This document shows, in pieces, positions 19,690-40,615 of a stretch of DNA of 64,000 bases; position 1 is the first letter of the stretch, and each line of letters starts with the position of its first letter. The translations under genes and the position numbers were made by a program. The notes beneath the pieces are model-generated. The model was given only the letters and a program-made list of their open reading frames with translations, did not search any database and was not told where the DNA came from. Source of the DNA: Acidobacteria bacterium 28-9 (lineage in GTDB: Bacteria > Acidobacteriota > Blastocatellia > Pyrinomonadales > Pyrinomonadaceae); NCBI GenBank assembly GCA_002050355.1, contig MWYY01000012.1:1-64000 (forward strand), given 5' to 3'.

Positions 19690-22146
19690 TTACGGCGTGA
19701 AACCGACGCGGCGGAGCAAATCTTGAAAGCGTGGGTCATCGCGTAACGGGTCGAGTCGCGGGTCAACTTTGATGTATACGATGCGGTAATTGCGTTTTTC
19801 GTAAGCGTCGTTCAACGCGGCAATCGCCCTGTTTTTCTCGCCTAGTCCCACACTGTATATTGCTACTAGGTATGAGGAAGTATTTGCCGGTCTGTGTTCT
19901 CCACTCATCATCCGCATAAAACCTTGCCAGCCGTCTCTGGCAAAACTCTCGCGCATCAACACTGCGTTTTGAGGCTGGTTTCGCAACTCTTCGTACTTGG
20001 CGAATAGCTCAACGCTCTCGGCATATCTACCCAATATATGGTAAGCAAATCCAAGGGCATCATGTGCTGGCGCAAAGTTGACATCCAGTTCGAGCGTCTT
20101 TTTGAATTGCGCTACGCTCTCCTCGTATCGTCGGGCGTAAAACAAACTCTCACCGTAATTTTTGTTGATGTGCAGTGACAGCGGTTCAATCTCTAACCCG
20201 CGTTGGAATTGCGCGAAAGATTCATCGTGCCTTCCGAGACGGGTAAGCAACAGACCATAAAGATGGTAAGACCTAGCATATTGTGGATTCAGTTCAATGG
20301 CGTGTTGGCACTCGCGTTCCGCCTCAGAGAATTCATAATCGTAAATTGAAAAAATCCCACAGAGAGCAACGTGAGCCTCAGCCAAATTGTCATCAAGTGA
20401 CAACGCTTTCAACGCAGCTAACTTCGCTTTAGGCTGCGCTTCGTGTGGGAACGCTCCCTCATAGGAAGAGAGACTGCTATAGCCGTCGGCAAGACCAGCA
20501 AAACCGAGGGCGTAGTTCGGGTCAACAGCAATAGCCTGCTGGTAAAATTCGATTGCCCTTCGCAAATCTTGCGGAGTTCCCTTATTCGCGTAGAAGCGTC
20601 CTTTCAAATAAAGCTGATAGGCTTCCGCACTTTCGGTGTAGTTCTTCGTCAATCGTTGCTCATCCGCACCTGATAATTTTGTTTTTAATTTGTTGGATAT
20701 ATCTCGCGCAATCTCATTCTGTAATGAAACGAGGTCGGTCTGTTTGCGGTTGTAATTTGCGCTCCACAGGACATTCTCCGTCTGAGCGTCAACCAGTTCG
20801 ATATTTAGAATCAACTGCTCCCCGCGCTGAACCACGTTACCATTTAAGATTGCTTGCACGTTTAATTCTTTGCCGATTGTCTGGGCATCCGTTTCTTTGC
20901 CTTTATAACGAAACACGCTAGACCGCGCTTTGATACTCAACTTAGGCAATTGCGAAAGACTGCTAATGAGCGTTTCGGTCATTCCATCTGAAAGATATTC
21001 CGTGTCTGCGTTGCCACTCTCGTTAACAAATGGCAACACGGCGATTGATTCGATTGGCTTTGCTGTTACCGGACGGCTGACGAAAAACCAATAACCGAAA
21101 CCAATTGACACGAGAATCAAAACCGACAAAATACCAAAGACTAATTTACGATTTTTAATCTCGTCTTTGTATTTCGCGCTTAAGGTTGTGTGTGCAGCGT
21201 CGCTTGTCGTTGCATTCAAGATTTGCGTTTTCGATTCTTCACGATTTGGCGCGACATTTCGTTCCAACTTGTTTTGAAATTCTAAGTCTTGTTTGATGTC
21301 TTTCAAATCAAGCCACAAATCCTTTATATGCTGGTATCGCTCTTCACGATTCTTTCTCAAACTCTTGCCAATGATTCTTTCCAGCTCCTTTGGAACACTT
21401 GAAGTGTGATGCGAAATGGGCATTGGTTCGCTTTTCAAGATTGAAGCTATCCGTTCATTTGCTGTCTCGCCAGTGAAAGGCAGTTGCGAACTTATCATTT
21501 CGTAAAGCACAACGCCAAGACTCCATATATCAGTCCGCTCGTCTGTGTCTTTTCCTTTGGCTTGTTCTGGCGACATATATCCGACTGTTCCCATCACAAC
21601 ACCAGCTTTGGTTTGAATAAGTGCGCGAGTCGCGGCTTCACTATCAGATTCTACTTCTATCTTTTCGGTTAATTTTGCCAAACCAAAATCAAGGACTTTC
21701 ACAATCCCGTCATGGCGAATCATAATGTTCTCTGGTTTGAGGTCACGGTGAACAATTCCTGCTGTGTGTGCTGCTGAAAGAGCGAATGCGGTTTGTTCAG
21801 CGATATTGAGTGTTTCGCTCAAAGACAATTCGCCGCTGCTCATTATTTCCCTTAATGTTTCGCCTTCAATCAGCTCTGTAGCGAGGAAATGAATATCTGT
21901 TTCAAAACCAAATTCATAAACGGTAAGGATATTGGGATGATTCAAGGCACTAGCGGCACGAGCTTCCTGTTCAAAACGTCGAAGGCGGTCTTTATCGGCT
22001 GCGAAAGTTTCAGGTAAAACTTTTAGAGCGACCTTGCGATTAAGTCGTGAATCTTCCGCCAAAAAAACTTCGCCCATCCCGCCCTCACCGAGCTTGGAGA
22101 TGATGCGATAATGCGACAAATTTATTTTGGATGAAGATTCTTTCAT
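19690..22146 (-). CDS. Ser/Thr protein kinase with TolB-like and TPR domains (third of three)
   Basis: 818 aa. Kinase domain about residues 11-270: glycine loop GEGGMGEV, VALKVL lysine, HRDLKPENIM catalytic loop, LDFGLAK, GYMSPEQ, DIWSLGVVLYEM. One membrane segment (about 333-355) follows a linker containing ESKTQILNATTSD. The periplasmic part starts with a TolB/FlgO-like domain (IAVLPFVNESGNADTEYLSD) and continues with about six TPRs, ending DDPRFQDLLRRVGF. The layout suggests a transmembrane receptor kinase whose outer part binds other proteins. It is 14 bases after the previous kinase gene in one operon. Catalytic residues look intact. Confidence 0.92.
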   Translation of the reverse strand: MKESSSKINLSHYRIISKLGEGGMGEVFLAEDSRLNRKVALKVLPETFAADKDRLRRFEQEARAASALNHPNILTVYEFGFETDIHFLATELIEGETLREIMSSGELSLSETLNIAEQTAFALSAAHTAGIVHRDLKPENIMIRHDGIVKVLDFGLAKLTEKIEVESDSEAATRALIQTKAGVVMGTVGYMSPEQAKGKDTDERTDIWSLGVVLYEMISSQLPFTGETANERIASILKSEPMPISHHTSSVPKELERIIGKSLRKNREERYQHIKDLWLDLKDIKQDLEFQNKLERNVAPNREESKTQILNATTSDAAHTTLSAKYKDEIKNRKLVFGILSVLILVSIGFGYWFFVSRPVTAKPIESIAVLPFVNESGNADTEYLSDGMTETLISSLSQLPKLSIKARSSVFRYKGKETDAQTIGKELNVQAILNGNVVQRGEQLILNIELVDAQTENVLWSANYNRKQTDLVSLQNEIARDISNKLKTKLSGADEQRLTKNYTESAEAYQLYLKGRFYANKGTPQDLRRAIEFYQQAIAVDPNYALGFAGLADGYSSLSSYEGAFPHEAQPKAKLAALKALSLDDNLAEAHVALCGIFSIYDYEFSEAERECQHAIELNPQYARSYHLYGLLLTRLGRHDESFAQFQRGLEIEPLSLHINKNYGESLFYARRYEESVAQFKKTLELDVNFAPAHDALGFAYHILGRYAESVELFAKYEELRNQPQNAVLMRESFARDGWQGFMRMMSGEHRPANTSSYLVAIYSVGLGEKNRAIAALNDAYEKRNYRIVYIKVDPRLDPLRDDPRFQDLLRRVGFTP

Positions 22147-22160
22147 CTATCTTTTTCAAA

Positions 22161-24650
22161 TCACTGTGGCAACCCGATGCGTCGCAGCAAATCCTGAAAG
22201 CGCGGGTCGGATTTCAAACTGTCAAAAGATGTGTCAACTTTCAAATAAGTTATTTCTTCGTCGTGTTCGGCAAATGCTTTTTCTAACCATTCGAAAGCGC
22301 GTTCCTTTTCTCTAAGCACCGCGTAGTCTGCGGCGACAGCGACTGCCGAGCCGATACCTCGTTCATAATATTTCAAATCATACTCAAGAGTCTTGCGCCA
22401 AAAGACAGTTGCACCACCTGTCTTTATCGCCTGCCGAAATTCCGCGTTTTTTCGTTCGCAGCTTTCTACTGTTTCGATATTCAAAAGAACTTGCGCTTTA
22501 CAACTAAGCTCGATGGATTCTTCATACATCCCTCTTTCAGCATACATAGCGGCGACAAACCGATAAGGCATCGGATATGTTGGCTCGGTTTCAATCAATT
22601 TTTTGAACTGTGCCATAGCTTCATCATTACGACGCAATGTCCAGTAGCGCAGCCCCAGATTCAAATTTACAGCGCGGGAAAATGGGTCAAGCTCATAAGC
22701 TCTTTTTATTTCAAAGAGAGCTTCATCATACCGTCCAAGTCTTTCGAGCAGCTCCGAATACCATTGGTGTGCGGTGGCAAAATTCGGATTTAGTTCAATA
22801 GCGCGTTTGAAATTATTTTCGGCTCCGGCGAAATCCCAATCGTCAATTTTTCTTTCCGCTAATACGGCATAGGCTTCGGCAAGGTTGTTGTCAAGCTCTA
22901 ATGTTTTAAGCGCCGCTGCTTTTGCTTTTAATTGCAATTCGCTGCGTTCCTGCTTGGTAATTGCGGCATTACCGGTGAAAACTCCATAAGCCATCGCCAA
23001 GCCGCCATAAGCCTTAGCATAGCCCGGGTCTTTGTCAATCGCTTGCTGAAATAGCGAGATGGCTTGCTTTAGGTCATCAGTTGTGCGTTTGTTCCAATGA
23101 AAAAGCCCTTTGAGATAAAACTGATAGGCTTCTGGGTTTGCTGTGTAGGTTTTCGCAACCTGCTGCTCTTCTACGCCAGATAATCTGGTTTTCAGCTTGC
23201 TTGAAACATCTCGCGCAATCTCGCTTTGCAATGAAACAAGGTCTGCCTGTTTACGGTTGTAATTCTCGCTCCACAATACTTTCTCCGTCGCGGCATCCAC
23301 CAATTCGATATACAAAGTCAAATCTTGTCCGCGCTGGACGACGCGCCCGTTCAAGACAGATTGCACGTTTAACTCTTTTCCGATTGTCTGCGCGTTTGTG
23401 TCTTTGCCTTTGTAACGAAACACAGAGCTTCGTGCTTTAACCAAGAGATTTGGTAGCTGTGACAAACTGCTGATAAGCGTTTCGGTCATTCCGTCAGAAA
23501 GATATTCGTTATCAGCACTGCCGCGTTCGTTGACAAAAGGCATTACAGCAATTGACTCGATTTGTCCTTTTGTAGATGAAGTACGAAAAGCGATAAACCA
23601 GTAGCCTAATCCGATTGATGCAAAAAGCAAAACTATTAGCCCGATAACGAAACCACGTTTGTGTTGTTTGATTTCCGTAACAACGTATTCCGCACTTGAA
23701 GTTGTGTGTGCGACATCTGATGTTGTCGCATTAAGAATTTGTGTTTTCGATTCTTCTCGATTCGGTGGAGAGGTTCGTTCTAATTTACTTTGAAACTTTA
23801 ACTCTTCTTTTACTTCTTCCAAATCTATGAGCAAGTCCTTTGCAGTTTGATACCGTTTGTCTGAGTCCTTTTGCAATGACTTTTTAACGATGCGATGCAA
23901 TTCCGCTGGCAGATTTCCGTCAAGTTGCACAGGTTCGGTTTTGAGAATTGCGGCAATCGTATCATTGGTTGTTTCGCCTGTAAATGGTTGTCGGGTAGTG
24001 AGCATTTCATACAAGCAAACTCCTAGACTCCAAACGTCTGTTCTTTCGTCAATGTCTTTGCCACGAGCTTGTTCCGGCGACATATACGCCACAGTTCCCA
24101 TTATCATTCCAGCTTTTGTATTAACCTGAGCGCGTGTTTCTGCTTCGGCATCAAAGGGAGACGAGGTTTTCTCAACCAGTTTCGCCAGACCAAAATCAAG
24201 GATTTTCACATAACCATCTCGACGAATCATTATGTTTTCGGGTTTAATGTCGCGATGAATAATGTGTGCTTGATGGGCAACCGATAATGCTGCGGCAATC
24301 TGTTCGGAAATTCTTACTGATTCATAAACACTTAAATCTTTCTTTTCAATCTTTTCCCGCAAAGTTTCGCCTTCGATAAATTCTGTAGCGATAAACAATT
24401 GGTCACCTGTTTCGCCAATCTCGTAAATAGTGATGATGTTCGGGTGATTAAGAGCTGAAGCGGCTTGCGCTTCGCGTTCAAAACGAAGCAAGCGTTCTTT
24501 ATCGGTGGCTATATTTTCGGGTAGAATTTTGAGCGCGACTTTGCGATTAAGGCGAACGTCTTCAGCTAGGTAAACTTCGCCCATTCCGCCTGCTCCGATT
24601 GGAGAGAGGATTTCGTAGCGTCCTAGTTTTGTATGGGCGGCAATCTTCAT
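22161..24650 (-). CDS. Ser/Thr protein kinase with TolB-like and TPR domains (second of three)
   Basis: 829 aa, with the same architecture as its neighbours. The kinase domain has GAGGMGEVYLAED, VALKIL, HRDIKPENIMI, LDFGLAK, AYMSPEQARG and DVWSLGVCLYEM. The linker carries NREESKTQILNATTSD. A membrane segment lies near residues 340-362. Then comes the TolB-like stretch (IAVMPFVNERGSADNEYLSD) and TPRs, with the conserved end SDPRFQDLLRRIGLPQ. Residues for ATP binding and catalysis are present. It is the middle gene of a tandem set with 14-base gaps on both sides, so co-transcription is very likely. The high similarity of linkers and ends points to recent duplication. Confidence 0.92.
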   Translation of the reverse strand: MKIAAHTKLGRYEILSPIGAGGMGEVYLAEDVRLNRKVALKILPENIATDKERLLRFEREAQAASALNHPNIITIYEIGETGDQLFIATEFIEGETLREKIEKKDLSVYESVRISEQIAAALSVAHQAHIIHRDIKPENIMIRRDGYVKILDFGLAKLVEKTSSPFDAEAETRAQVNTKAGMIMGTVAYMSPEQARGKDIDERTDVWSLGVCLYEMLTTRQPFTGETTNDTIAAILKTEPVQLDGNLPAELHRIVKKSLQKDSDKRYQTAKDLLIDLEEVKEELKFQSKLERTSPPNREESKTQILNATTSDVAHTTSSAEYVVTEIKQHKRGFVIGLIVLLFASIGLGYWFIAFRTSSTKGQIESIAVMPFVNERGSADNEYLSDGMTETLISSLSQLPNLLVKARSSVFRYKGKDTNAQTIGKELNVQSVLNGRVVQRGQDLTLYIELVDAATEKVLWSENYNRKQADLVSLQSEIARDVSSKLKTRLSGVEEQQVAKTYTANPEAYQFYLKGLFHWNKRTTDDLKQAISLFQQAIDKDPGYAKAYGGLAMAYGVFTGNAAITKQERSELQLKAKAAALKTLELDNNLAEAYAVLAERKIDDWDFAGAENNFKRAIELNPNFATAHQWYSELLERLGRYDEALFEIKRAYELDPFSRAVNLNLGLRYWTLRRNDEAMAQFKKLIETEPTYPMPYRFVAAMYAERGMYEESIELSCKAQVLLNIETVESCERKNAEFRQAIKTGGATVFWRKTLEYDLKYYERGIGSAVAVAADYAVLREKERAFEWLEKAFAEHDEEITYLKVDTSFDSLKSDPRFQDLLRRIGLPQ

Positions 24651-24664
24651 CTAGCTTAAGTTCA

Positions 24665-27136
24665 TTACGGAAGTCCGACGCGTCGGACTAAATCCTGAAA
24701 CCGAGGGTCTGAGCGCATAGGATTATAAGCAGTACCGACTTTTAACCAAGCCATTGCATCCTCACGGTTCTGGTAAGAGCGCTCAAGCCATTTTAAGGCT
24801 TCTTCGTATTCTCCAAGTAATGCGTAATTTCCCGCTATTGAACCAGCCGAATGTTTGCCTTGATTAAATTCATCCTTGTCAAATTCAAGAGTCTTTTGCA
24901 GATACGCTTTCCATCCGCCCTTTTTATATGCTTGCTCGAGAGCTTCTATCTTCTGTTTGCTTTCGCCTGCAACAACCATTCCTTTTTGGTATGCGGCAAA
25001 GGCTTCGTCAAACATCTTCTTCTCCTCGTAAGCCCAACCGATAGTTGAGTAGGCGTTTGGAAAATTTGGCTCTAACTCTAAAGTTTTCCGTGATGATTCC
25101 AGAGCTTTGTCATACTGACCTTGAAACATCAATAATTCTGCCATCTGCTCGTTTATAACAGGCGATAAAGGGTCAAACTCTTGAGCTTGTTTGATTTGAG
25201 TGGCGGCTTCATCAAAATGCGCCATTTGCGTTAGATACTCTCCGTACCACTGTCTGGCTGTGGCATATTTTGGATTAAGTTCGATTGCCTTCAAGTAATC
25301 TTTTTCAGCACCTTCAAAATCCCACTCGTAATCTGTTTTAATGTAGGCAAGAGCCGTGTATGCTTCGGCTAAATTAGGGTCAATCTCTAACGCCTTTAAC
25401 GCTGCCGCTTTGCCTTTTGGTGCAGATTCTCTTGCAGGTTCTACGCCATATTCACCGAGAAGTGCATAAGTTTCAGCCAATCCCGCATAAGCTAACGCAT
25501 AGTTCGGGTCTTTTTCAATTGCCTGCCTGAAGTATTCGACAGCTTTTTTGAGTGATTGATTCCGCTTGTTCCAGTGAAAGCGACCTTGCAGATAAAGTTT
25601 GTAGGCTTCTTCATTATAAGTGTAACGCTTGGTTATGCGTTCTTCTTGCGCACCCGTCAGACGCACTCGAAGTGAATCCGTTATTTGCCTTGTAATCTCT
25701 TCTTGAACGGCGAATATATCCGAAGATTTTTTGGTGAATTGTCGTCCCCAAAGCTGTGTGTTGTTTTGCGCGTCCGTCAAATCAACACTGATGGAAAGCG
25801 TATCGCCGCGCTGAACAACCCGCCCATTTATGATTGCCTGTACATTTAACTCTTTAGCTATTTGCGCTAAATCTACGTCTTTGCCTTTGTAGCGAAATGC
25901 CGATGCACGAGCTATGACTTTCATGTTTGGCAATTGCGACAAGCTGTTTATTAATGATTCGGTAAGCCCATCTGATAGGTATTCCGTATCCGCATTACTA
26001 CTCGTGTTTTGAAAAGGCAAAACAGCAATTGACTCAATTTGTGTTGTGCTTGAAGTGCGGTTAGAGAAAAACCAATAACCCAAACCAATTGATGCAAGAA
26101 GCAGAACAATCAAACCGATAGCGAAGCTGCTTTTATGACTTTTTATTTCACTGATAACATACTCGGCACTTGATGTTGTATGCGCAGCGTCGCTTGTCGT
26201 TGCAGTCAAGATTTGTGTTTTTGATTCATTACTATTATTTGGTGGAGCGGTTCTTTCCAACTGACTCTGAAGCTGTAAATCCTGCCTTACATCTTTCAAA
26301 TCAATGAGCAAATCTTTCGCTGTTTGATAACGCTCTTCACGGTCTTTCTTGAGCGTCTTGCTGATGATGCGTCCAATCTCTTGCGGAACTTCGGGTAACA
26401 GTTGTTGAATGGGCGCAGGTTCTTTATTTAAGATAGAGCCGATAACATCCAAAGCATTATCGCCATCAAATGGCGGTTTGCCTGTCAGCATTTCGTAAAG
26501 CACAACTCCGAAACTGAATATGTCGCTTCTGGCATCTATATTTTTACCTCGTGCTTGTTCAGGCGACATATAAGCGGCTGTTCCGATTATCATTCCCGGA
26601 CTTGTTCCCTCAGCTTTGATTGCCGTTGCTGCTTCTGCGTCAATTGACTCCGCCTCCTTCTCTGTTAGTTTGGCAATCCCGAAGTCGAGAATCTTCACTA
26701 CTTCATCTGGGCGAATCATTACGTTCTCAGGTTTGATGTCTCGATGAACTATTCCTGCTCGATGTGCCGCCTCTAAAGCAGATGCAACTTGAATCGCAAT
26801 ATCAAGAACAGACTTCAAATTCATCGGCTCACTTCTCAAACGGCTGTGAAGAGTCTCGCCTTCTATGTATTCAGTGGCAATGAAATGTGTGGAGTCTGTT
26901 TTGCCAATTTCGTGAATGGTGATGATGTTCGGATGATTAAGAGCAGAGGCAGATTTTGCTTCTTGAACAAATCGGCGCATTCGTTCCGTGTCATTTGCCA
27001 AATCTTCGGGCAAGACTTTCAAAGCAACAAGACGTTCCAGTTCTGTATCATCGGCAAGGAACACTTCGCCCATTCCGCCCTTTCCGATTGCGGAACGGAT
27101 TTTGTATCGTCCAATTTGTTCGCCTGTTGAAATCAT
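24665..27136 (-). CDS. Ser/Thr protein kinase with TolB-like and TPR domains (first of three)
   Basis: 823 aa from ATG 27136; an upstream TTG would add five residues without a better ribosome site. Kinase motifs are GKGGMGEVFLADD, VALKVLPED, HRDIKPENVMI, LDFGIAKL, AYMSPEQARG and DIFSFGVVLYEM. The linker holds NESKTQILTATTSDAAHT. One membrane segment lies near 343-365, followed by IAVLPFQNTSSNADTEYLSD (TolB-like) and TPRs, ending SDPRFQDLVRRVGLP. It is promoter-proximal in the three-kinase operon. It is the most diverged of the three in the TolB-like region (e.g. AFRYKGKDVDLAQIAKEL). Confidence 0.92.
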   Translation of the reverse strand: MISTGEQIGRYKIRSAIGKGGMGEVFLADDTELERLVALKVLPEDLANDTERMRRFVQEAKSASALNHPNIITIHEIGKTDSTHFIATEYIEGETLHSRLRSEPMNLKSVLDIAIQVASALEAAHRAGIVHRDIKPENVMIRPDEVVKILDFGIAKLTEKEAESIDAEAATAIKAEGTSPGMIIGTAAYMSPEQARGKNIDARSDIFSFGVVLYEMLTGKPPFDGDNALDVIGSILNKEPAPIQQLLPEVPQEIGRIISKTLKKDREERYQTAKDLLIDLKDVRQDLQLQSQLERTAPPNNSNESKTQILTATTSDAAHTTSSAEYVISEIKSHKSSFAIGLIVLLLASIGLGYWFFSNRTSSTTQIESIAVLPFQNTSSNADTEYLSDGLTESLINSLSQLPNMKVIARASAFRYKGKDVDLAQIAKELNVQAIINGRVVQRGDTLSISVDLTDAQNNTQLWGRQFTKKSSDIFAVQEEITRQITDSLRVRLTGAQEERITKRYTYNEEAYKLYLQGRFHWNKRNQSLKKAVEYFRQAIEKDPNYALAYAGLAETYALLGEYGVEPARESAPKGKAAALKALEIDPNLAEAYTALAYIKTDYEWDFEGAEKDYLKAIELNPKYATARQWYGEYLTQMAHFDEAATQIKQAQEFDPLSPVINEQMAELLMFQGQYDKALESSRKTLELEPNFPNAYSTIGWAYEEKKMFDEAFAAYQKGMVVAGESKQKIEALEQAYKKGGWKAYLQKTLEFDKDEFNQGKHSAGSIAGNYALLGEYEEALKWLERSYQNREDAMAWLKVGTAYNPMRSDPRFQDLVRRVGLP

Positions 27137-27293
27137 TCGTAAAGTGAGCAAATTCTAGCACGAGACGAAAGTTTAATAAATACTTTGCTTAATTATAAGG
27201 TCAGATAGGTTCTGTTGGAGATAGAGAGATGGAATTGGAAATAAGAAAAGCCAATGATTAAAAATGCTCTTTTTGGCGTTTATTCGTATCAGC

Positions 27294-27473
27294 TTAGAGA
27301 TTGAGTCTTTGGTATTGTGCAAACAGCTTAGTAATCTCAGCGTTGATACTCTGTTTAACAGCAAGATTGATTTCTTTATCTCGTCGCTTTACCAATTCTT
27401 CGATTTGATGTTGAAGAGCTTCTTGTTTTGTTTCCGGCTTCCTGCTTTTACTTATTTGATATTTATTGTCCAT
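27294..27473 (-). CDS. Small basic coiled-coil-like protein, 59 aa
   Basis: A short ORF starting MDNKYQISKSRKPETK and continuing with charged helix-forming residues (EALQHQIEELVKRRDK, INAEITKLFAQYQRL). It is rich in Lys, Glu and Gln, with no Cys or membrane segment. The codon pattern and hydrophilic composition favour this frame over the opposite-strand ORF at the same place, which is hydrophobic and lacks family features. It lies upstream of the kinase operon on the same strand, 157 bases from the first kinase. Not recognised; possibly a DNA- or RNA-binding accessory protein of the element. Confidence 0.6.
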   Translation of the reverse strand: MDNKYQISKSRKPETKQEALQHQIEELVKRRDKEINLAVKQSINAEITKLFAQYQRLNL

Positions 27474-27689
27474 AGAACGATTTTACTACCCTAAGCACAC
27501 TCCTCCGAATCAACCTTAACCAGTCAAATGCCTTGTGAATAACTCGTTACTAAATGCCCTTTATTTGGCGTTTAGACGCGCTGTGAGAGGTTTGTTTTGT
27601 AATTGCATACTCTTACTGCCTATTCATAAAATGCTCCCAATGATGATTGCAAAATAGAGCTAGAATTTCTTGTGTTTCCAGCAACCGGA

Positions 27690-27747
27690 GCTAAGTCCTT
27701 TGTTTAAGTTAATTATTCTCTAAGATGCTAAAGACAAAGGAGTTAGC
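27690..27747. terminator. Inverted repeat / possible terminator
   Basis: Arms gctaagtcctttgt (27690-27703) and acaaaggagttagc (27734-27747) match at 13 of 14 positions across a 30-base loop, and the second arm is followed by atttttg. It could stop leftward or rightward transcription between the 59-aa gene and the small-RNA promoter. No gene is seen between 27474 and 27782. Confidence 0.45.
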
Positions 27748-27782
27748 ATTTTTGTTTAACAATGTTTTTGAGTAAACGGCGC

Positions 27783-27811
27783 TTGACTTTTCCACCACTT
27801 TTCTGTATTAT
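27783..27811 (+). promoter_or_regulatory. Strong sigma-70-type promoter of a predicted small RNA
   Basis: TTGACT (27783-27788), a 17-base spacer and TATTAT (27806-27811). It lies 100-160 bases before a good terminator, with no gene between. Expected start of transcription is near 27818. Confidence 0.65.
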
Positions 27812-27817
27812 AATAAT

Positions 27818-27975
27818 TGTAAGCGAAACATATTTCTTAGTTATCGCTGACAAAGATTTAAGACAGTTCGAGGAATAAAATGTAAATAAAAGTCACTAAA
27901 TTAAAGGCTTGTAAAAGTCCTGTTGTTGACCTGTATTTATTCCTCTCAAGTCAACGACAGGATTTTTGTTTTTCA
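27818..27975 (+). ncRNA. Predicted structured small RNA with a terminator/pseudoknot
   Basis: A unit of about 155 bases with its own promoter. A short 5' stem can form (agcga / tcgct, about 27823-27849). Then comes gaggaataaa (27870-27879), followed by atgtaa, a start codon directly followed by a stop. The 3' end is a terminator hairpin (27918-27930 with 27950-27962, 12 of 13 pairs, then a T-rich tail). The hairpin loop contains tttattcctc (27936-27945), exactly complementary to the 10 bases at 27870-27879. The RNA could therefore fold as a pseudoknot that hides its Shine-Dalgarno-like sequence. Not a known family to me; it lies upstream of the element's replication-type genes. Confidence 0.5.
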
Positions 27976-28033: not shown

Positions 28034-28080
28034 AAAGGCAAGTTTCATAATGTTTTGCAGACCTAGTGAAACTTACCTTT
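28034..28080. repeat. Inverted repeat IR1 (aagtttca / tgaaactt type)
   Basis: Arms 28034-28047 and 28067-28080 pair at 13 of 14 positions around a 19-base loop. Its stem is nearly the same as that of IR2 at 29309-29352, 1.3 kb away. The pair brackets the DUF4241 gene. It could be a protein-binding operator, an RNA element or an origin feature. The remainder of 28081-28327 is the AT-rich leader of the next gene. Confidence 0.6.
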
Positions 28081-28327: not shown

Positions 28328-29083
28328 ATGTTTACTTTAACGCCGATTACAAATGAAGAGAAGCCATCAGTAGCTCTAACTACTGACAGCTTCATTACTG
28401 AAACATATGAAATTGAAAACGAATCCGATTTCTCAGATAGCAATATACAAGATTCGCCGTCTGAAAGCAATAATAGCGAAACTGTAACAATTGAGTGCGC
28501 GGGACGTTTTGAACCGGATTATCTGGAAGTTGGAGAATTAGTAGTTACATCCGGGTCAATTGTAGCCTGCGACCCTTTATGTTTCTCGAACATCGAGCCA
28601 TTTATTGTTTCAGTTCCAAGAGGGTCATTTCCTGTAGTTATTGGAATGACTAGCTTTGAAAATGGAAACCATATTGTATCCGATGCGACGGTGCGTTTCA
28701 GTAATGAAAATGTTGTTGAGTGGCAACCAGCTTTAATTAAAAGCCAAGACCCATATTATTTAGGAAAAGAAATTTCTGATTACGCGGTTGATTCCGGAAC
28801 TGGATGTTTTATGGATGCAGAAGTTGCCGAATTACTATTGTCCAAAATAAAAGATGAAAGTTACCGCCATTATGTGATTGCCAAATTGCTAAGAAACCCT
28901 ATTCACGACTGTAATCAGGCAAACATAGAACTAAATCCTGAAACGGGCGGAAATGTAATAGCTTTCTCAACTGGTTTTGGTGATGGCTTCTATGATTCTA
29001 AAGTCGGTTATGACAAAAGCGGAAAGATAGTTTGTATCGTTACCGATTTTGTCTCTGATTTACAGATGGATGATAAAATTTAA
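28328..29083 (+). CDS. DUF4241 domain protein
   Basis: A 251-aa protein with an excellent ribosome site (aggagg, 7 bases before ATG). Residues 1-55 are acidic and low in complexity. The rest fits DUF4241: LEVGELVVTSGSIVACDPL (about 65-83), FPVVIGMTSF (about 99), SDYAVDSGTGCFMDAEVAE (about 148-166) and a C-terminal FSTGFGDGFYDSKVGYDKSGKIVCIVTDF. The family is widespread and has no established function. It has no signal peptide. It opens the rightward gene block of the element that includes the primase, and may be controlled through IR1/IR2. Confidence 0.75.
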   Translation: MFTLTPITNEEKPSVALTTDSFITETYEIENESDFSDSNIQDSPSESNNSETVTIECAGRFEPDYLEVGELVVTSGSIVACDPLCFSNIEPFIVSVPRGSFPVVIGMTSFENGNHIVSDATVRFSNENVVEWQPALIKSQDPYYLGKEISDYAVDSGTGCFMDAEVAELLLSKIKDESYRHYVIAKLLRNPIHDCNQANIELNPETGGNVIAFSTGFGDGFYDSKVGYDKSGKIVCIVTDFVSDLQMDDKI

Positions 29084-29308: not shown

Positions 29309-29352
29309 GGGTAAGTTTCAAATTAGTTTGACGGCTTACGTGAAACTTACCC
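29309..29352. repeat. Inverted repeat IR2 (gggtaagtttca / tgaaacttaccc)
   Basis: Perfect 12-bp arms (29309-29320 and 29341-29352) with a 20-base loop. The arms share the aagtttca / tgaaactta core with IR1, and the loops are also alike (ttagtttga.gg.ctta versus tgttttgcagaccta). It lies 126 bases before the start of the next gene. Confidence 0.65.
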
Positions 29353-29477: not shown

Positions 29478-29957
29478 ATGAATTTAGTACTAGTAGAAAA
29501 CTTAGTAGCCATAATGTTGGAACTAAAGGAGCAGGGGAAAGATAAAAATAAAAATATCGAACCACTGGTAGAGAAACTAGAGTATTGGTTTGGACAATAT
29601 CCGAAAGGATTTCCAAAGCATTGTGAGCGAAGAAAAGACCAAGACAATTTAGACGGTCTTAGTTGGACGCAGGAATTATCAATAAGCAAGACTACCTTCA
29701 AGAAAGCTTTCAAAGAAATTGGAGTCTGCTATTTATTACCTGAGCAGTTTGAACAGGCAGAGGATAAGTTTCAGGGAGAGTTTTACTGTAGCGTCCTGCA
29801 TCCGTCGAACAACCATAGAACCTTTTATTACCGTAACACCGAGTTAATCGCGGCGGTAAGAAAGAAGTGGTTTGATGGAATTGAACAAAAGAAATGGTTT
29901 GATGAAATCGAACTAATGGTTAATCTCAATACCCAAAACGTAGGTTTAGACCAATAG
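29478..29957 (+). CDS. Unrecognised protein with a helix-turn-helix-like segment
   Basis: 159 aa from ATG 29478, preceded by ggagggc. The open frame runs 150 bases further upstream, but that part overlaps IR2, has no ribosome site and reads like non-coding sequence. The central LSWTQELSISKTTFKKAFKEIG (about residues 55-76) looks like a helix-turn-helix, followed by a wing-like YCSVLHPSNNHRTFYYRN. This would suit a plasmid-type replication or regulatory protein, but the family is not recognised. It is the first gene of the probable replication module that leads to the primase. Confidence 0.7.
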   Translation: MNLVLVENLVAIMLELKEQGKDKNKNIEPLVEKLEYWFGQYPKGFPKHCERRKDQDNLDGLSWTQELSISKTTFKKAFKEIGVCYLLPEQFEQAEDKFQGEFYCSVLHPSNNHRTFYYRNTELIAAVRKKWFDGIEQKKWFDEIELMVNLNTQNVGLDQ

Positions 29958-30031: not shown

Positions 30032-30754
30032 ATGATGGAAAATGTAAATACGAGATACGAAGTTGTGCTTAGTGAATTATTAAAGAAACTCGGTCTAAAG
30101 CCGAACCAGTGCCAATTGATTAGGGCTTTTATTACTGCCTCTAAAGGTGAATCTCGCTTTGAAGTTTCACGCACAGATTTGGCTTATATTCTTTTCAATG
30201 ACAATTCAACAAAATTGAAGGCGAACAAAGAAAAGGTCAGCTATTGGCTTGAAACTCTCCAAAAATGGCAGGAAAAGAATTCATTAGAGCTTATTCGCAT
30301 AGTAGAAAAGGGCAGTCGAGAGGAAACCGATAATGGGAGATTTGCTTACCACAAACCTAAATATGAATTTGTGATGTTAGGTGAATTTCTAATGCTGCTC
30401 AATTCAGAACAAGGAAATTTAGAAGCGGATTTAGAAAGTGCTATTTCAAGGCTAACGGGACAATATCAGCCGTCTGAAAGGACTACGCCATATCATCCGA
30501 GACATTTGAGGAAGAAAGCGAAGAAAACAATTTTCACGTTGTTAAAAAGCATTTTCGAGTATTCGGTTCAAGTAGAAGAAAATCCGGTTGCATCGTGTCA
30601 AGACGTATTGAATGACGCTTGGGGAAAATTAAACGCGATGGAAGGCGAATGGAGCGAACAACAGAATCGGGAAAAGAGAATCGCTGAATTTGAAGCTCTT
30701 CTCAATGAAAATGAGGCTGTCGAAGATGAAAGAGAGTTAGCATTGAGATTTTAA
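30032..30754 (+). CDS. Unrecognised 240-aa protein of the replication-like module
   Basis: A soluble, charged protein with no signal or membrane segment. Seen: LLKKLGLKPNQCQLIRAFITASKG (residues about 15-38), TDLAYILFNDNSTKLKANKEKVSYWLETLQKW (about 49-80), which could be a winged helix, and a basic stretch YHPRHLRKKAKKTIFTLLKSIF (about 153-174). The C-terminus is acidic and coiled. The position between an HTH-like protein and a primase suggests a role in replication initiation or its control; that is inferred from context only. Two adjacent ATG codons could start it. Confidence 0.7.
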   Translation: MMENVNTRYEVVLSELLKKLGLKPNQCQLIRAFITASKGESRFEVSRTDLAYILFNDNSTKLKANKEKVSYWLETLQKWQEKNSLELIRIVEKGSREETDNGRFAYHKPKYEFVMLGEFLMLLNSEQGNLEADLESAISRLTGQYQPSERTTPYHPRHLRKKAKKTIFTLLKSIFEYSVQVEENPVASCQDVLNDAWGKLNAMEGEWSEQQNREKRIAEFEALLNENEAVEDERELALRF

Positions 30755-30886: not shown

Positions 30887-31861
30887 ATGAAATTACCAAT
30901 GAAACGTGCTGTTGTATCACCAAATCCAGACTTGATTTTAGGAAATGTTTATCTCAACTCTAAAAAGGTTGAGAACTATTCTAAAAATGAGTTGTTAAAT
31001 GCTGCCTTGTTCTATGCAAAGTTGGGTCTGCCTGTTCTTCCCTTGCATAGCTTTACTCTGAGAAACGGCGCTGTTCAATGTTCGTGTAGAGATTGGAAAG
31101 AGTGTAATAAACCAGCCAAGCATCCACGAACAAGATTTGGACATACCGAAGCGACAACCAATATAAAGACAATCAAGGATTGGTGGACTAAACACCCGGA
31201 TTCAAATATCGGACTTTTGACAGGTGTTCAGACGGGTCTTTTGGTGCTTGATATTGATTTGAAATACGGTGGTGAGCAATCTTTGGAATATCTGCAAGAA
31301 GATTACAAAAGTCTTTTGAAGGATAAATATATGCCGCTTCCCGCGACTTTAACGACTTTTACGGGTTCAGGCGGTCGGCACTTATATTTCAAGTTTCCCA
31401 CCGATTTGAGAGATATTACGGGGTCGGCATCTGACATAGCGGAAGGCTTAGATATAAGAGCCAATGGTAATTATATTATCGCTCCGCCGAGCAAGCATAT
31501 AAGCGGTAAAAGATATTCTTGGTTCGGTGTGGATACACCAATTGAGGCTGCACCGGACTGGTTGATTTATGAAATTATAAAAGTTGGTAAAAGAGAAAGC
31601 TCCAAATCTGAAACCCAGAAGCCAGATAATCCAACTGTTTCCAATTATTCAAAATCAGTTCTAACCGAGAGAATTTCTGAGGGCAAACGGTATGATTATC
31701 TTTTTAGAAAGGTCTGCGGGTTGGTAAACAGCTATAATAAGGAAGATATGCTAAGACACGCTTTTCAAATTAATGTTAGTAGTTTTGAAACTGAATTACC
31801 CGAAAGAGAAATTGTTAGGCTAGTTAATGATGTTTGTAAGAGATATGGAAATTCTTTATAA
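30887..31861 (+). CDS. Primase-polymerase (PrimPol) with PriCT-like C-terminus
   Basis: 324 aa. The PrimPol domain covers about residues 37-225: ALFYAKLGLPVLPLHS, KHPRTRFGHTEAT, NIGLLTGVQTGLLVLDIDLKYGG (the DxD metal ligands), FTGSGGRHLYFKF and GLDIRANGNYIIAPPS. The C-terminal segment (ISEGKRYDYLFRKVCGL...PEREIVRLVNDV) fits a PriCT accessory domain. Such proteins prime replication of plasmids, phages and satellites. There is no helicase domain or separate helicase gene here, so the element would rely on the host's. The ribosome site is weak; a second ATG lies four codons in. Confidence 0.88.
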   Translation: MKLPMKRAVVSPNPDLILGNVYLNSKKVENYSKNELLNAALFYAKLGLPVLPLHSFTLRNGAVQCSCRDWKECNKPAKHPRTRFGHTEATTNIKTIKDWWTKHPDSNIGLLTGVQTGLLVLDIDLKYGGEQSLEYLQEDYKSLLKDKYMPLPATLTTFTGSGGRHLYFKFPTDLRDITGSASDIAEGLDIRANGNYIIAPPSKHISGKRYSWFGVDTPIEAAPDWLIYEIIKVGKRESSKSETQKPDNPTVSNYSKSVLTERISEGKRYDYLFRKVCGLVNSYNKEDMLRHAFQINVSSFETELPEREIVRLVNDVCKRYGNSL

Positions 31862-31992
31862 GATTTCTGAAAGGAATTGTTCCGCATTAACGTTTAATGA
31901 CTTATTCAACTTTGCATTCATTTATGATTGTTTGTTGTTTACTTCATAAAGTATTTTTCAATTAGCTTTATAGCAAGCTAACAAACAAAGTA

Positions 31993-32027
31993 GCTGTTTC
32001 CGCCTCACATCCATTGATTTGTTGGGC
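31993..32027 (-). repeat. attC-like arm (site C) after the VOC gene
   Basis: On the minus strand the sequence reads GCCCAAC (a perfect R'' box) followed by aaatcaatggatgtgaggcg, then gaaacagc, close to the other sites. It follows the VOC stop codon by 20 bases. The R'' box is exactly complementary to GTTGGGC at the start of the same cassette (32514-32520), as required of an integron cassette. The second arm was not found, so the array seems to end or to be cut here. 31862-31992 shows nothing else. Confidence 0.6.
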
Positions 32028-32047
32028 GCACCGTTGCCTAAGGATGA

Positions 32048-32467
32048 TTAATATATTGACCATAATCCGGGCGTAACTAATTCCAACAAATGATTGTCCG
32101 GGTCTCGAAAGTAAAGGCTTGTCGCGCCGCGCGTCCACTTATACTCGCTTTCAGTTTCAACGTCATTATCACGCAACCAATTCTTCCATTGCTCTAAATC
32201 ACTTGTTGGAATTGAAAAAGCCAGATGCAAATCTCCGCTGCCGTCGTGCGGCGGAATCGTTCCGCCCGAACCGCTCATCGCTGCATTAGACGCGCCTTTT
32301 AGAAACAAAAGCAAAACTTGTTTGTCTGAGACGCTCAAAGCACAAAGTCGCTCGTCAGAATAAAGCGTTTCAAATTCAAAAACCTTTTTGTAAAACGGCA
32401 AAGACAATTCTAAATTATCAACATAAAGCGCGGTTTCTAACACACCATTCAACTTTGGGACACTCAT
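32048..32467 (-). CDS. VOC (glyoxalase/bleomycin-resistance-like) family protein, cassette gene
   Basis: 139 aa from ATG 32467; a GTG five codons earlier is also possible. The VOC pattern is clear: LETALYVDNLELSLPFYKKVFEFE (residues about 10-33), HLAFSIPTSDLEQW (about 80-93) and a C-terminal YFRDPDNHLLELVTPG with the usual Asn-His and Glu metal-ligand region. VOC proteins include glyoxalase I, dioxygenases and antibiotic-binding or antibiotic-modifying proteins; which one this is cannot be told. It is enclosed by attC-like sites, making it a typical integron gene cassette on the minus strand. Confidence 0.88.
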   Translation of the reverse strand: MSVPKLNGVLETALYVDNLELSLPFYKKVFEFETLYSDERLCALSVSDKQVLLLFLKGASNAAMSGSGGTIPPHDGSGDLHLAFSIPTSDLEQWKNWLRDNDVETESEYKWTRGATSLYFRDPDNHLLELVTPGLWSIY

Positions 32468-32513
32468 AAATTGTAATTTCACATAAGTTGCTGTTTCATT
32501 TCAACTACGACGC

Positions 32514-32626
32514 GCCCAACAGTTGGGATAACGTAGGACGAAACCGAATACACCCAAGCTAAAGTTCGACGGACAACGCCAAATGAAAGTCGCTGTTTCG
32601 CCCTCACGTCCAATGATTTGTTATGC
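32514..32626 (-). repeat. Integron-like attC site (site D), complete
   Basis: 113 bases. On the minus strand R'' is GCATAAC (32626-32620) and R' is GTTGGGC (32520-32514). The inner arms (acgtaggacgaaac and gtttcgccctcacgt) pair over 13 bp with one extrahelical base and one mismatch, the asymmetry that integron integrases read. R'' is exactly complementary to the start of its own cassette (GTTATGC at 33362-33356), and R' opens the VOC cassette. This is the best-preserved site of the set. Confidence 0.75.
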
Positions 32627-32649
32627 TGCACCTGCGATGTAATCACATT

Positions 32650-40533: not shown

Positions 40534-40615
<82 letters not shown>

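Follow-up and report, generated by a model that had tools for sequence, protein, structure and literature searches.

A predicted structured RNA of an Acidobacteriota genome, found in two versions, whose terminator loop is complementary to the Shine-Dalgarno-like sequence of a start-stop reading frame

The immunity of phage P4 depends on a short RNA (CI RNA) processed from the leader of the replication operon, in which the pairing of leader segments leads to early termination. To our knowledge no start-stop ribosome-binding site (RBS) paired with a terminator loop is known in this system. The rep leader of I-complex plasmids forms a pseudoknot, and the streptococcal csRNAs, which are anti-Shine-Dalgarno small RNAs, carry a seed complementary to the Shine-Dalgarno (SD) sequence and the start codon. 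The RNAI of the I-complex plasmids is a separate antisense RNA (PMC10724649). In the case of IsrK of the Gifsy-1 prophage a terminated short RNA and a read-through mRNA arise from one promoter, access to the RBS of an upstream ORF is governed by alternative structures, and activation in trans has been demonstrated (PMC4825925). Ribosome-mediated attenuation before an intrinsic terminator has been described for msrDL, where the ORF MYLIFM stalls ribosomes with a drug (PMC10314930). No paper on an AUGUAA start-stop with a ribosome was found in the open-licence literature, where the best match for AUGUAA together with stalling concerns the plant NIP5;1.

In the stretch of DNA analysed here (64,000 nucleotides, hereafter the window) positions 27783-27975 of the plus strand hold, in 5' to 3' order, a promoter-like site, a 5' hairpin, the sequence GAGGAATAAA, ATGTAA, a spacer and a long U-tailed hairpin. 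The sigma-70-like promoter TTGACT-17-TATTAT (27783-27811) agrees with the consensus at 10 of 12 positions; the same consensus scan turned up five such sites over 1.25 kb where 2.8 were expected, which makes the promoter match alone weak evidence. The 5' hairpin (27822-27848) is predicted by folding. It is followed by the Shine-Dalgarno-like GAGGAATAAA (27870-27879) and by the start-stop ORF ATGTAA (27880-27885), whose SD is modest (-5 to -6 kcal/mol against the anti-SD, compared with -10.3 for the SD of the DUF4241 gene discussed below). The intrinsic-terminator hairpin (27911-27969) has 20 pairs, G-U pairs allowed, between 27911-27930 and 27950-27969, a loop of 19 nt (27931-27949) and a U-rich tail (27964-27975); it was overlooked by a terminator scanner that accepts loops of at most 8 nt. 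The longest plus-strand ORF overlapping the RNA has 38 aa, and the original observation of a promoter-like site and a strong terminator without a normal gene is borne out. The fold of the 159-nt RNA has an energy of -38.5 kcal/mol (z -3.7). Rfam 15 offers no family for this leader, only a tRNA at 40540 reaching threshold in the window; the best sub-threshold match, to L10_leader (24.2 bits against 44; no rplJ), was rejected.

The loop segment TTTATTCCTC (27936-27945) and GAGGAATAAA are complementary over exactly 10 nt, which agrees with the earlier claim that the ten bases before ATGTAA are a perfect complement of the terminator loop. This is the longest ungapped perfect internal complement of the 27783-27975 stretch. 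A loop complement of 10 nt was reached in 0.28% of 5000 dinucleotide shuffles of the upstream part (p 0.0028), a modest value for a single locus, the feature having been picked from the whole window. Moreover, none of 290 comparable hairpins in 853 kb of other sequence, read on both strands, had a loop complement beside ATGTAA.

A paralogous locus was found on contig C26 of the same genome by searching with the surrounding intergenic sequence. The flanks are homologous, with 83% identity to window positions 25806-27607 (a kinase gene and a 59-aa ORF) and 95% identity to 31984-32622 (a glyoxalase-like gene and a repeat). The core between them cannot be aligned by BLASTN; the C26 core lies at the equivalent position and keeps the parts of the window, their order and their orientation, with similar spacing. 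In genome coordinates this second leader occupies about 24406 to 24235 of the minus strand, with its promoter at the former position and the end of its hairpin at the latter. Its promoter-like site, TTGACT-17-GACAAT, starts with TTGACTTTTC as in the window, a 5' hairpin stands at the matching place, TAAGGATATG overlaps an ATGTAA at the corresponding place, and the spacer to the hairpin is similar in length. The terminator-like hairpin has the arms GCCCTGCTTTTG and CAAAAGCAGGGC, a weak U-tract (TTTATTAATTT) and a loop of 17 nt (TAGTCTCATATCCTTAC) that contains CATATCCTTA. The loop is complementary to TAAGGATATG over 10 nt and to GAGACTA, past the stop codon, over 7 nt. The 10-nt complement has a shuffle p of 0.0013 and was seen with ATGTAA alongside in none of 20000 shuffles; the folding z-score of this leader is -3.3. 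The L10_leader match was absent for the C26 copy.

The paired segments of the two loci differ yet stay complementary (GAGGAATAAA/TTTATTCCTC in the window, TAAGGATATG/CATATCCTTA in C26), and the helix that they form, S1, has about -11 kcal/mol in both leaders. The original prediction had named covariation of the 10-bp pairing as its check, and at C26 this pairing is kept with altered letters, the segments having changed jointly and not independently. Direct alignment of the two leaders gave a weak residual similarity that includes the promoter, ATGTAAA and the terminator, with 7 of 500 shuffles as good; this is consistent with common descent, short of proof. Alignments of the two RNAs by MAFFT misplace the paired segments, so the pairing counts rest on hand placement and no covariance model was built. 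The locus 27783-27975 very probably represents a genuine structured RNA that has two members and covarying pairing between RBS and terminator loop. As the same design recurs with other letters and intact pairing at a second place in the genome, it is also probably a real switch controlling plasmid-type genes.

No third copy was found in 119 genomes of the family, nor in plasmid, phage and viral collections. BLASTN searches with the window RNA in 59 relatives, plasmids and phages gave short chance-like matches or nothing, and the other matches of the C26 leader that were inspected among the 119 family genomes fall in unrelated, mostly coding sequence. An exact pattern had five matches in viral contigs, which read singly are coding-start coincidences. 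With the generic pattern (RBS-ATGTAA...anti-SD) in 9 genus and 162 class genomes the forward and reverse counts resembled the reversed control, and the extended complement was present nowhere outside genome G000. Homologues of the plasmid-type gene were also examined in 396 phylum genomes, in viral contigs and on plasmids; the architecture was absent from their surroundings, and from the leaders of the relatives of this gene in viral contigs, G004, G021, G147 and three plasmids. In L079 a cluster of repeats on the opposite strand looks similar at first sight and was judged coincidental. Since the sensitivity of such searches is low for short, fast-changing RNAs, this absence is weak evidence; nevertheless the new RNA family that had been suggested is unsupported as a broad family, the two members found both being in this genome. 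Inverted repeats lie upstream of related genes: one of 23 bp in G004 (L063, contig C70, 2740-2830), the right arm of which contains the -35 box of a promoter-like site, on a contig shared with a tRNA gene and an integrase that is short or broken, and a long near-perfect one in G147 (L129, contig C117, about 1050-1170; GGGGAGTTACGGAACCGTCGTTTTTT and its complement).

The first gene downstream in the window encodes a DUF4241 protein (28328-29083, plus strand; Pfam PF14025, E 1e-36) and has a strong SD of its own, AGGAGG. It is followed on the same strand by the plasmid-type gene (29478-29957), which is homologous to the gene that immediately follows the C26 leader, by an uncharacterised gene (30032-30754) with one relative in the same genus, and by a Prim-Pol domain gene of the same block (30887-31861; PF09250, E 5.7e-42). 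The earlier placement of the RNA beside replication-type genes was broadly right, given the Prim-Pol gene and another gene that has relatives on conjugative plasmids. At C26 a 410-aa gene starts 114 nt after the end of the hairpin; this gap contains no promoter match, and the promoter, the terminator-like hairpin and the gene start all lie within about 290 nt. The N-terminal domain of the 410-aa gene is related to window 29478-29957 and also to plasmid proteins of Methylovorus, Cupriavidus and Ilyobacter, two of these plasmids being typed as conjugative and one as mobilizable. The C26 gene has weak matches to phage replication-initiation profiles, on which a putative winged-helix-like label for the plasmid-type gene is based. 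At least one of the plasmids has an annotated replication initiator besides the related gene, and for this reason "plasmid-type gene" is safer than "Rep". The link between leader and genes is weaker in the window, because the first gene starts about 350 nt beyond the leader, behind a further hairpin and weak promoter-like sites.

Several other features were observed around the locus. On the minus strand 19690-27151 holds a tandem array of three genes, each of about 820 aa and kinase-like at its N-terminus, the one tested being a Ser/Thr kinase with TPR repeats, and a 59-aa ORF (27294-27473, MDNKYQISKS...) is conserved in several family genomes in varied contexts, with no Pfam match above the cut-off. 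Positions 27690-27757 contain an upstream U-tailed bistable hairpin, in which GCTAAGTCCTTTGT pairs at 13 of 14 positions with ACAAAGGAGTTAGC, or TGCTAA with TTAGCA, and whose loop also holds an SD-like sequence. Two hairpins of the form AAGTTTCA-(19/20 nt)-TGAAACTTACC, at 28040-28077 and 29313-29351, flank the DUF4241 gene 1273 bp apart; they are the only exact matches to this pattern in the genome and are possible cassette borders or operators. The glyoxalase-like gene (32048-32482, minus strand) is flanked by attC-like repeats (31982-32045 and 32500-32640; GCCCAAC...GTTAGC and GCATAAC...GTTGGGC), which suggests an integron cassette, and the homology with C26 sets in only a few bases from the putative crossover point.

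At C26 the terminator-like hairpin lies between the promoter-like site and the gene, in the same direction, and the window has the same order with a longer gap. Because the C26 hairpin stands so shortly before the plasmid-type gene, with no promoter match on the way, the role of a leader and attenuator fits best. We therefore put forward tentatively, and with a confidence somewhat short of even, that the RNA would be the leader of the plasmid-type gene block, probably also a short terminated RNA of about 155 nt, and would work as an attenuator. The parts, the pairing, the covariation and the position of the C26 leader are observed features on which this proposal draws. Transcription would start near 27818, and the terminator loop segment would emerge before the 3' arm of the terminator and pair with the RBS of the one-codon ORF (S1, 10 bp); S1 would then enclose the 5' arm and delay the terminator. 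If the start-stop RBS were occupied by a 30S or 70S ribosome, S1 would be blocked, so that the terminator would fold and transcription would stop, and with no ribosome bound a larger number of polymerases would continue into the genes downstream; transcription, the gating by the ribosome and the direction of its effect are what we infer here. As the ORF consists of AUG-UAA only, the site would report initiation capacity and not an amino acid.

The order of folding was computed on growing transcripts with a nested model. For both RNAs P(S1) was near 1 from the emergence of the loop to the last bases of the 3' arm, and once these were out P(terminator) was near 1, replacing S1. Such an order is suggestive of an attenuator whose terminator is delayed by S1 and whose S1 would be removed by a ribosome at the start-stop site. 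S1 uses the loop of the terminator and not an arm, however, so that the two could in principle form together as a pseudoknot, a structure that a nested model excludes by construction, and S1 need not prevent termination. The architecture is known from two examples, both in one genome assembly. It is a speculation, and one that we regard as distinctly unlikely, that a codon-less start-stop site senses ribosome availability in a mobile-element switch of transcription, where the ribosome and the helix between RBS and terminator loop would compete, and that differences between element types in the letters of this helix give type-specific self-recognition.

The same loops could instead act on other molecules. 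Both carry an anti-SD (UUCCUC in the window, AUCCUU in C26), that of C26 also an anti-start CAU, and the window loop matches the RBS segment GAGGAAAAAA of the DUF4241 gene at 9 of 10 positions, as would suit a trans-acting small RNA whose terminator loop is an anti-Shine-Dalgarno seed silencing mRNAs and whose upstream copy of the RBS serves as a built-in decoy, holding the seed shut until it is released by a ribosome or protein. Any anti-SD loop, however, matches many RBSs by chance, the exact 10-nt complementarity is in cis at both loci and the C26 copy sits as a leader directly before a gene; we consider such a small RNA possible but rather unlikely. The mutual complementarity of loop and RBS lets any two molecules pair, and an abundant short terminated RNA could also recognise its own kind through the loop, like IsrK or in P4-type immunity, by pairing in trans with the RBS region of new leaders or of read-through mRNAs of the same element, which would tune expression to copy number. 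The pairing between loop and RBS at C26 extends to 16-17 bp with a bulge (-16.9 kcal/mol), nearly the whole loop being pairable; this exceeds an easy fit in cis and speaks somewhat for a degree of trans pairing or for exclusive structures. The two loci have different letters, as expected of types that do not cross-react. Proximity nevertheless favours pairing in cis and the element may be immobile, and self-recognition of this kind seems unlikely to us.

An ordinary intrinsic terminator beside a decayed gene start, complementary by chance, would be in keeping with the AT-rich sequence, with a single-locus p of about 0.003 that is modest after the reading of a whole window, and with the lack of a homologue by sequence in the 119 family genomes. 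It is improbable, as C26 repeats the promoter, the start-stop, the hairpin and the loop complement with different letters, and none of the 290 background hairpins is comparable. The inverted repeats at 28040-28077 and 29313-29351, in the same block, would also agree with an element acting as DNA, either a replication origin or a recombination hairpin, but the promoter, the SD-start spacing, the U-tail and the polarity toward the genes on one strand speak rather for an RNA and make this a very improbable explanation.

If the attenuator reading is true, this would be an attenuator without a leader peptide, built by pairing a terminator loop with a start-stop RBS and reading only the rate of translation initiation. 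The plasmid-type gene blocks of Acidobacteriota, about which little is known, would also gain a control element. The two versions that occur naturally in this genome, with their letters swapped, would be ready-made compensatory variants for cis against trans pairing.

Compared with the known systems, the predicted leaders share with the csRNAs a seed complementary to SD and start, which here sits within the same molecule as its complement. With the CI RNA of P4 they share a short RNA from a leader and the pairing of leader segments, the P4 RNA being processed. The I-complex rep leader is similar in being a leader RNA that pairs through loops and so controls the replication genes of a plasmid; these plasmids, however, use a separate antisense RNA, and none was identified at the window locus, where a consensus scan of the minus strand, which leaves room for an antisense promoter, found no match to sigma-70 within 27783-27975. 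The likeness to msrDL is that an intrinsic terminator follows a very short leader ORF and that ribosome occupancy is proposed to set termination, but the msrDL ORF stalls ribosomes with a drug, whereas here the ORF is AUG-UAA only, with no codon after AUG to be sensed, and the competing helix uses the loop and not an arm of the terminator. IsrK of Gifsy-1 is the closest functional parallel found. In IsrK a middle segment pairs with the 3' part of orf45, a real ORF, whereas here the terminator loop would pair with a start-stop RBS, and its activation in trans was demonstrated, whereas the window and C26 leaders are known from their sequences; both nevertheless appear as leader-type RNAs of a mobile element (here predicted), with short and read-through RNAs and alternative structures at an RBS.
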